Shown piece by piece: positions 9,358-25,452 of a stretch of DNA of 32,209 nt. The number at the start of each line of letters is the position of its first letter. The stretch's first letter is position 1. This DNA comes from Comamonadaceae bacterium (GTDB taxonomy: Bacteria; Pseudomonadota; Gammaproteobacteria; Burkholderiales; Burkholderiaceae_C), in contig JAAOZX010000402.1 of the NCBI GenBank assembly GCA_012274225.1, positions 1 through 32,209 on the forward strand, written 5' to 3'. The notes under the pieces are model-generated. The model had not been told where the DNA came from and searched no databases. It was given only the letters and a program-made list of their open reading frames with translations. The position numbers and the translations under genes were made by a program.

Positions 9358-9948
9358 ATGTCAACTGACAAGAACAAGCCCGACAAGGACAAAAGACCGC
9401 GCGGCATGCGCGGGCTTGACGAGCCTTACATCCGGGGCGATGTGCTGCCCAGCCCGGTGGCCATCGAGATGAATTCGGAATCGGCCTGGGACATGTGGAA
9501 GGAAGCCCACGCCGCGCATGAAGCCAAATTCGCGGACACCGCGCCGATGTCGGTGACGACGCTGCCGGGGGATCCGAACTACGCCGCAACCGAACCTGCC
9601 AGCCTGGGTGCCGAAGTGGGCGTGGGTCCCGGCGAAGCGCCGCCGGGCGCCGCCAAGGCCAAGCCGCCGACGGTGGACGACGCGATGCTGGAGGCGCGCA
9701 AGAACAATCGCGTGTGTCCGATTCCGGCGCGCTGGCAGGAGCTGTACCAGATGCTGCCGGATCGCAAGACCCACCAGCCGACCCCGCCGCTGGTCGGCGC
9801 TTCGTGGGGCGCGACGCCGTCTATTTCCAAACGCATGTGCTTGCGCGAGCACCTGGAATGGGCCGAGTCCAAGGGCACCCTGGACCCGGTGTTGGCGTTC
9901 CTGAAGCGACTCCCCGAAGGGGAGTGGCATCACATGGGCGACGGCTAG
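9358..9948 (+). CDS. Hypothetical protein
   Basis: 196 aa; MSTDKNKPDKDKRPRGMRGLDEPYIRGDVLPSPVAIEMNSESAWDMWKEA...CPIPARWQELYQMLPDRKTHQPTPPLVGASWGATPSISKRMCLREHLEWAESKGTLDPVLAFLKRLPEGEWHHMGDG. Confidence 0.75.
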   Translation: MSTDKNKPDKDKRPRGMRGLDEPYIRGDVLPSPVAIEMNSESAWDMWKEAHAAHEAKFADTAPMSVTTLPGDPNYAATEPASLGAEVGVGPGEAPPGAAKAKPPTVDDAMLEARKNNRVCPIPARWQELYQMLPDRKTHQPTPPLVGASWGATPSISKRMCLREHLEWAESKGTLDPVLAFLKRLPEGEWHHMGDG

Positions 9949-9951
9949 CGA

Positions 9952-9982
9952 AACTCTCAAATCGCTAGGCGATTTGAGAGTT
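9952..9982. terminator. Perfect 14-bp inverted repeat, stem-loop immediately 3' of the stop codon (structured 3' end; no T-tract)
   Basis: AACTCTCAAATCGC-TAG-GCGATTTGAGAGTT, beginning 3 nt after the stop codon at 9946-9948. Confidence 0.6.
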
Positions 9983-10079
9983 GGCTTGAACGGTGCGGAC
10001 AGGGTTGGTCACCGAGAAGGAACTGTCGGCCAACGCTGCCGGGCATTGACCCGGCGGGCGTCACGCCGTCGATTCGTGA

Positions 10080-23567: not shown

Positions 23568-24749
23568 ATGAGCATAGCCGTTCCGCGCCGGATCCTGCCC
23601 GTGATCGTCCTGTCGCAGTTCGCCGGAACCTCGCTCTGGTTCGCCGTCAACGCCGTGATGCCTGATCTGCAGCGAGCCTGGGGCCTGCCCGCCGCGGCCG
23701 TTGGCATGCTCACTTCGGTGGTGCAACTGGGCTTCGTGGCCGGCACCCTGGTGTTCGCGCTGCTGATGCTGGCGGACCGGTTCCGGCCCCAGCGGGTATT
23801 CCTGGTCTGTGCGTTGCTGGCCGCCGCGCTCAATGCCTGCGTGGTGTTGGCGCCGGGGCGGTTCGACCTGTTGCTGGTCCTGCGGTTCGGCGTGGGGTTT
23901 CTGCTGGCCGGGATCTACCCGGTCGGAATGAAAATCGCCGCCAGCTGGTACCGGCAGCGGCTGGGTGCGGTGATGGGTGTGCTGATCGGGGCACTGGTGC
24001 TGGGCACGGCACTGCCGCATGGCCTGCGGGCGCTGGCCGGCGATGGCGCCGCGGCGGCCGGCGACCTGCCGCCTTGGCAGTGGGTGGTGCTGGGCGTGTC
24101 GGCGCTGGCGGCCTTGGGCGGTATCGCGACGGCCTGGCTGGTGCCGGTCAATCCCGATGCCGTCGCCGGCGCGCGCATGACGCCCAGGGCGTTGGCGCTG
24201 ATCTGGTCGGACCGGCGGCTGCGCGCCTCGGTGTTCGGCTACTTCGGCCACATGTGGGAGCTGTATGCCTTCTACGTGCTGGTGCCGCTGGTGCTGGCCA
24301 CCCGGATCAGCGGCACCGCCGTCAGCGCGGCAGCGTTCTGGGCAATCGCGGCGGGCTTTGCCGGCTGCGTTGCCGGCGGACTGCTGGTGCGGCGCTTCGG
24401 CAGTGCCAGCGTGGCCCAGTTCCAGCTCGCCACCAGTGCTGCCTGCTGCCTGGCCGCGCCGCTGATGCTGGCCGCGCCGTTGCCGCTGTTCATGGTCTGG
24501 CTGTTGCTGTGGGGAACCACCGTGGTCGGCGATTCACCGCAGTTCTCGACCTTGACCGCGCAGAACTCGCCGCCCGCCGTCGTCGGCAGCGTGCTCACCT
24601 TCACCAACTGCATCGGCTTCGCGATCTCGGTGGTGAGCATCGAGCTGTTCGTGCGTGCGGCTCAGGTCTGGCCGCTGGCGGCGTTGCTCCCCGGACTGGC
24701 GCTCGGGCCGCTGGTGGGCCTGTGGATGCTCAGGCCGCTGCTACGGTGA
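23568..24749 (+). CDS. MFS transporter
   Basis: [61 protein letters not shown]...; multiple TM helices, about 394 codons. Confidence 0.93.
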
Positions 24750-24752
24750 GTT

Positions 24753-25013
24753 CACTCTGAAAATCGCGCGGGCGATTTTCGGAGTGGTTCTGGTCAGCGC
24801 GATGAGGACCGGCAAAGCCGGATACTCACCGCGAGGGCGACTGCGCTCCATGTTATTGCGCGCAGTCGATGTGCCACTGCGTGGGACCATCGCATCGTGG
24901 ACCGCGCGGAGCATCGCGCAGCGCGGTCTCTCTTGTGGGCAGGATCCGGCTCTGCCGGTCCTGGCCACACCGTTCAAACCAACTCGGAAAATCGCTCAGC
25001 GATTTTCCGAGTT
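24753..25013. repeat. Mirror-symmetric array of seven stem-loops (compound inverted repeat) between convergent genes
   Basis: Seven consecutive hairpins read directly: 24753-24786, 24798-24833, 24838-24868, 24867-24897, 24900-24928, 24934-24969, 24981-25013; pairs 1/7, 2/6 and 3/5 are mutually related inverted copies centred near 24883. Confidence 0.75.
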
Positions 25014-25452
25014 AACGCGCGACGAGCACCGGCACCGGCGAGTGGGCAACCACCTGCGCGGCCACGCTTCCCAGCATCAGCCGGCTGATTCCGGTGCGGC
25101 CGTGCGAACCCACCACCACCAGGTCGGCATGGCTTTCCTGGGCCATGTCAACGATGCCGCGCATGGCGGTCACATCCTCTACCAGCCGCACTTCGAGGTC
25201 CACCGGCGGCTCGGAACGCTTGCACAGCGCCTCGACCTTGGCATGGGCCTGCGCGGCATGTTGCTGCGCCGCGGACATGTAGGCCTGGAAACCCATGGGA
25301 TTGGTTTCGCCGATTCCCAGGTAGGGGTATGGGTCCACCACATACAGCGCGGTGAGTTTGGCGTGGTGGATGCGGGCGAGTCCGACGGCCAGGGTGGCCG
25401 CGTGTTCGGACGCCGCGGAACCGTCGGTGCCCAGGAGGATGTGCTTGAACAT
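25012..25452 (-). CDS. Universal stress protein (UspA family)
   Basis: MFKHILLGTDGSAASEHAATLAVGLARIHHAKLTALYVVDPYPYLG...HADLVVVGSHGRTGISRLMLGSVAAQVVAHSPVPVLVAR. Confidence 0.96.
   Translation of the reverse strand: MFKHILLGTDGSAASEHAATLAVGLARIHHAKLTALYVVDPYPYLGIGETNPMGFQAYMSAAQQHAAQAHAKVEALCKRSEPPVDLEVRLVEDVTAMRGIVDMAQESHADLVVVGSHGRTGISRLMLGSVAAQVVAHSPVPVLVAR

Follow-up and report, generated by a model that had tools for sequence, protein, structure and literature searches.

What is the mirror-symmetric set of seven stem-loops that lies between two convergent genes in the window (the whole stretch of DNA analysed, 32,209 nt)? The first-pass annotation described it as a seven-hairpin element that looks like an inverted duplication. 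All seven stem-loops were found where that annotation had put them. Nevertheless, the repeated entity is smaller: 24751-25015 consists of two copies, tail to tail, of a dispersed unit that measures about 117 nt and has three hairpins and a variable fourth; a spacer carrying H4 lies between the two copies. The mirror symmetry of the seven hairpins arises because the region consists of two inverted copies of one unit. The features are as follows, R1 being the covariance model of the 117-nt unit.

23568-24749, + strand: MFS transporter, host gene of the first unit (Pfam PF07690, E 2.9e-25)
24751-24868, + strand: first unit (H1-H2-H3), in sense behind the MFS gene (R1, 118.1 bits, E 7.2e-23)
24753-24786, + strand: H1, hypervariable stem with ATCGC/GCGAT core and A/T tract; the MFS stop codon is 3 nt before it
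24798-24833, + strand: H2, covarying stem topped by the conserved apex CCGGC-AAA-GCCGG
24838-24868, + strand: H3, GACYGCGC stem; two inner pairs covary within its conserved 13-nt apex
24869-24898, no strand: 30-nt spacer with H4 (GTGCCACTGCGTGG box), from by-eye sequence alignment
24899-25015, - strand: second unit, inverted, in sense behind the USP gene (R1, 126.3 bits, E 1.1e-24)
24900-24928, - strand: H5, the H3 of the second unit
24934-24969, - strand: H6, the H2 of the second unit
24981-25013, - strand: H7, the H1 of the second unit, whose TTAACTC edge provides the USP stop codon TAA
25012-25452, - strand: universal stress protein (USP), host gene of the second unit (Pfam PF00582, E 2.9e-34)
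9949-10057, + strand: decayed third unit, seen in sequence and hairpin (R1, 30.1 bits, E 0.0024)

The MFS coding sequence stops at 24749 and that of USP at 25012-25014, with the TAA at the edge of H7. The two arms of the pair are different subtypes, and the entire pair recurs in the host genome on contigs C135 (82% identical) and C236 (77%) when compared over the length of the pair. A purely local inverted duplication is therefore ruled out; whole pairs have been copied. Boxes GTGCCRCTGCGYGG or GTGCCGCTAGCGG, related to H4, are found 3' of H3 in many single units by by-eye alignment, the GTGCCRCTGCGYGG box at this position being the H4 of the window. In the decayed unit at 9949-10057, H1 (AACTCTCAAATCGCTAGGCGATTTGAGAGTT) is intact and directly 3' of the stop of the gene at 9358-9948, and H2 and H3 have decayed.

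The RNA minimum free energy of 24740-25025 is -160.5 kcal/mol on the forward strand (z -9.25) and -146.1 on the reverse (z -8.53), and none of 200 dinucleotide shuffles folded as stably, which bears out the folding excess expected for both strands. When only local pairs were allowed, 24750-25016 gave the seven hairpins (-140.9 forward, -132.8 reverse). The unrestricted fold of the same segment (-151.9 and -144.3) retained H1 and H7 and paired H2-H3 with H5-H6 over the symmetry axis. Local and cross-axis pairing are thus two competing folds of the window pair.

The order within the unit is H1, the linker GGTCTGATCAG, H2 with its variable stem and CCGGC-AAA-GCCGG apex, a short linker, and H3, which has a GACCGCGC stem and the apex TGC-RY-GTT-RY-TCC with two covarying inner pairs. 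In a structure-blind MAFFT alignment of 49 units, double compensatory changes were present in 34 of the 42 pairs. When 111 distinct units were aligned to the model, compensatory changes appeared in 41/42 pairs, with 991 double changes and 95.5% of the cells paired, a level reached by 0/500 shuffles, and the covariation score fell six-fold when the partners were slid by one column. The structure of the unit is conserved while its sequence drifts, and the covariation is overwhelming; selection on structure, proposed from the single locus, is supported.

The kind of mismatch tolerated in these stems may bear on which strand folds. G·U is rare (76 of 4576 cells), and A·C mismatches exceed it in the covariance model columns of H2 (45 vs 10) and H3 (42 vs 12, one dubious column dropped). 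Native terminators show the opposite, with 7 G·U and 0 A·C (Fisher P 0.003 on the symmetric count, for cells that are not independent). Because an A·C of the sense strand corresponds to a G·T of its complement, selection or repair may act on the opposite strand in its folded form, as happens in single-strand transposition. The excess of A·C over G·U argues that the selected form is not the sense RNA alone, because selection acting purely on a sense-RNA hairpin should give the reverse.

These data bear on two readings of the structure. A free-standing structured non-coding RNA, or a small RNA family derived from 3' UTRs, would fit the excellent covariation and the conserved H3 apex, but the wobble bias is on the wrong strand for it, no promoter-like site was found, Rfam holds no family for the unit (microRNA matches were below threshold only) and the position of the units is bound to the stops of host genes. 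This reading, raised by the first-pass annotation as a structured RNA of its own, is very improbable. Binding of gyrase and IHF has been proposed for the BIMEs of E. coli, and a DNA-level element, in which the unit would be a binding site for these or other nucleoid proteins at gene ends, could account for stems conserved without wobble, the long-range cruciform-type fold of the pair and the location at gene 3' ends. It leaves unexplained the strict sense orientation and the 0-7 nt offset from the stop described below, and no protein is known to bind the units, so we consider it improbable, although less so than the free-standing RNA.

Similar copies, expected by the first-pass annotation in the host and its relatives, are indeed present, as a dispersed BIME-like repeat. 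R1 found about 38 confident units in this 4.17-Mb Ramlibacter assembly, and BLAST placed the unit, single or paired, at about 40 places in the host genome. Contigs C344, C159 and C137 of this genome start within units, which suggests that assembly breaks at the repeat and that there are at least as many copies as counted. Four other Ramlibacter genomes carry 7-18 units each. At E < 1e-4, R1 detected the unit in 9 of 301 genomes of the family and 3 of 200 of the order, counts that both include this genome and that are lower bounds owing to strict filters. True copies were also found by an exact-pattern scan in Caenimonas, Xenophilus, Ideonella, Rubrivivax and other Burkholderiales. Most units are single; the tail-to-tail pairs have gaps of 28-48 nt and are 77-82% identical over the whole pair, and one genome (G030) has seven such pairs among its 18 units. 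A search of a plasmid collection returned chance matches only, and the literature search found no description of the unit, in Ramlibacter or otherwise.

For dispersed palindromes, the preference for gene 3' ends is usually a loose one; the placement of this unit is much more precise. With genes called by a simple purpose-made codon-usage caller, the unit starts within 8 nt of a same-strand stop codon in 73 of 108 cases (68%), against a null of 3.4% of intergenic positions (P 7e-80, a nominal value since units are not independent). The same holds for 54 of the 69 single units taken alone. Of the 30 units that score best in this genome, 28 stand behind a same-strand stop, within -20 to +4. At the junctions, H1 begins 0-7 nt past the stop, or the TTAACTC edge provides the TAA. 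In Ramlibacter, a comparable hairpin occurs at only 11 of 372 other gene ends, some of these being stray H1s. Stop-adjacency also holds in Ideonella, Rubrivivax, Xenophilus and Caenimonas. Exceptions occur in G030, where several pairs have only one stop-adjacent member and a few units have no adjacent stop; units at four loci of that genome (L371, L390, L394 and L398) are away from same-strand stops. The link to gene 3' ends seen in the first-pass annotation is supported, and the abutment on stop codons is absent from that annotation, which was based on a single locus.

The host genes are mutually unrelated and include groEL, prs, ahpC, rho, typA, ffh, a pilT/pilU-family gene, an ABC transporter ATPase, response regulators, an acyl-CoA ligase and others. 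Since the unit lies just past the stops of unrelated genes, it looks like a gene-end add-on that spreads. Many units are between genes of the same direction, and some are within operons (ahpC-ahpF, thiolase-acyl-CoA dehydrogenase).

Empty sites in the relative G005 show what these gene ends look like without the unit. There, 18 host genes were found, 16 of them without a unit. In 14 of these 16 the stop falls on the same codon in both species, which puts the unit at a natural gene end. The gap between the thiolase and acyl-CoA dehydrogenase genes is 4 nt in G005 and holds a full unit in this genome (L196/L272). At two further loci (L185/L271 and L181/L288) the unit lies between the stop and the native terminator as a clean insertion, and native terminators are often still present downstream of the unit. 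The typA and pilT/pilU-family genes carry it in both species (L195/L275 and L198/L277), with compensatory changes in the H1 stems despite 92% identity of the coding sequence. Occupancy varies between species, and therefore no host gene seems to need the unit. Between its USP and MFS genes, G005 has a small membrane-protein-like ORF (L215, ~2030-2320) in the place of the element; the window lacks this ORF.

Two other accounts of H1 were considered. A supply of stop codons that truncates the host genes was rejected for the 14/16 orthologues and is true for two loci (L189 and L193). H1 as the native terminator, with H2-H3 as the sole insert, does not hold in general: a hairpin of this kind is rare at other gene ends, and the empty sites of G005 have no H1.

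Taken as a family, the three-hairpin units have thus been inserted into pre-existing gene ends, in sense and 0-7 nt past the stop. Our main reading, to which we give a probability of about 0.5, is that two inverted copies of a dispersed, non-autonomous hairpin element form a BIME-like pair here, and that this element supplies the 3' untranslated region (3' UTR) of its host genes and has a role at the mRNA end. The element would settle directly past a stop codon and would be transcribed within the host mRNA, where its hairpins may block 3'-5' exonucleases; copies with an A/T tract in H1 or H2 could also help intrinsic termination. The pair in the window would equip both convergent genes, MFS and USP, with such a 3' end. 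The weakest step is the spread of the element, which might occur as single-stranded hairpin DNA; this would explain the near-perfect Watson-Crick stems and the bias of wobble to the strand opposite the mRNA. Sense orientation, stop offset, retained downstream terminators and operon positions all point to a 3'-UTR element. Judging from sequence, the likeliest effect of the unit would be mRNA stabilisation or assisted termination.

A stronger role in termination is possible, though we find it less probable than the 3'-UTR element. According to this explanation, the unit is a mobile intrinsic terminator in which H1 and H2 end transcription, and a pair does so from both sides as a barrier to colliding convergent transcription. 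Four or more T are present in the H1 3' arms of 72 of 111 units and in the H2 3' arms of 13, groEL copies can have a T-tract hairpin in the H2 slot, and B. subtilis, whose transcription runs ahead of translation (runaway transcription), is a known case of short distances from stop to terminator (PMC7858274). Those terminators resemble the unit in having a hairpin a few nt past the stop codon, but they are ordinary per-gene terminators that form no related repeat family, unlike the unit (PMC7858274). The terminator scan called neither H1 nor H7 of the window, whose copies have weak tails, and native terminators often remaining downstream also speak against this role. Units in operons cannot be strong terminators there, and a collision barrier could not be a general role, since single units predominate and many units separate genes of the same direction.

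It is somewhat more doubtful that the unit is simply a selfish hairpin element of single-stranded DNA. An HUH enzyme, for instance the resident RAYT-like Y1 transposase, would then mobilise it in trans, with stop-adjacency reflecting target choice or tolerance and no gain for the host. Patchy occupancy between species, the copying of whole pairs and the near-perfect stems with A·C above G·U, the bias that folding of the strand opposite the mRNA should give, are all consistent with it, as is the presence of one RAYT-like gene in nearly every Ramlibacter. However, R1 detected no unit in 22 Ramlibacter RAYT-like neighbourhoods, RAYTs also occur in congeners without BLAST-detectable units, the GTAG edge tag and target-site duplication are both absent, and random tolerated insertion would not give 68% of units within 8 nt of a stop. 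The RAYT-like Y1 transposase itself (~240 aa; L256 and others) is usually present in one copy in the Ramlibacter genomes searched, irrespective of the number of units.

Among known elements, the unit belongs with the BIMEs as a strongly structured dispersed element, and its attachment to stop codons is unusually precise. REP/BIME sequences of E. coli, Pseudomonas and others are likewise palindromes scattered between genes, close to 3' ends, and occur alone or as inverted pairs; some GTAG REPs provide the TAG stop codon of flanking ORFs (PMC3733652), which may be taken as the nearest precedent for the stop-adjacency of the unit. The REP/BIME likeness suggested by the first-pass annotation stands for BIME composites, since inverted units are copied as such, and fails for the REP definition. 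A REP is a single hairpin of 20-40 bp, whereas the unit has 117 nt and three different hairpins; it also differs from REP/BIME in its strict sense orientation 0-7 nt past stops and in its tens of copies, not hundreds. GTAG/CTAC was present at the edges of only 12 of 111 units, and CGTC is absent from the consensus edges. A RAYT gene flanked by the repeat, a further REP trait, has no counterpart in the unit-free RAYT-like neighbourhoods. The alternative of a MITE found no support: a single unit has no end-to-end terminal inverted repeats, which only composite pairs have, and direct repeats of 5-8 nt around units are no commoner than expected. An integron attC site was rejected, as its boxes RYYYAAC and GTTRRRY occurred together in 1 of 111 units.

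ERIC of Yersinia and NEMIS/Correia of Neisseria resemble the unit as small non-autonomous dispersed elements. They are transcribed with flanking genes and processed as RNA. Each consists of one long imperfect palindrome and duplicates a TA target, a feature not seen at the units. The closest named betaproteobacterial repeat is BRE, a small intergenic repeat of Betaproteobacteria, including Comamonadaceae, with up to 29 copies per genome; it has 75-91 bp, ~69% GC in Bordetella, tandem variable-number arrays and some copies inside ORFs (PMC3110155). The unit, with 117 nt, mostly 50-65% GC and single or tail-to-tail copies, differs from this description of BRE in size, GC content and arrangement. 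Bor, Ype and Efa are also stem-loop repeats; in the portion of the source available, Ype and Efa are preferentially near CDS 3' ends, intergenic stem-loops generally favour the 50 bp past stop codons, Bor measures 26-30 bp, and that portion reports neither a three-hairpin unit nor a precise stop offset for the three (PMC1590033).

A sister element was found in another Burkholderiales family (G430, G506 and G038; L342-L370). Its H1 core, AAGTACAAACCTACTT, has ~50 near-exact copies in G430, where the reversed control pattern has 0. It shares the H2 apex of the Ramlibacter unit, lies 3' of groEL and other genes, and has hairpins -7 to +7 nt from the stop in 20 of 26 cases. Thus, the layout is older or more general than the Ramlibacter family. 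A tentative and rather unlikely generalisation would be a class of mobile elements that recognises ORF ends: three-hairpin cassettes in sense behind unrelated stops, for which the folded strand under selection or repair would be the complement of the mRNA and whose sister families would have arisen convergently in separate Burkholderiales families. A stop offset of 0-7 nt in a single orientation at dozens of unrelated genes, in at least two sequence-distinct sister families, would mean either that insertion senses where a reading frame ends or that the terminating ribosome is needed for the function. Close relatives with empty sites permit a before/after comparison of gene expression, and the stems, hypervariable yet near-perfect, lend themselves to studying how palindromes in bacteria are kept perfect.

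The 3' regions of groEL, compared in 20 cases within Ramlibacter, show a native state formed by the stop, a short spacer and an intrinsic terminator. A full unit is present in 5 of the 20 and a partial one in at least 3; at these sites, the native T-tract terminator occupies the H2 slot, with H1 upstream and H3, if present, downstream. Since some forms have H1 and the native terminator without H3, the modules can occur apart. In one groEL 3' region (L333, genome G013), the order is H1, native terminator, linker-H2-H3, with the terminator splitting the modules.
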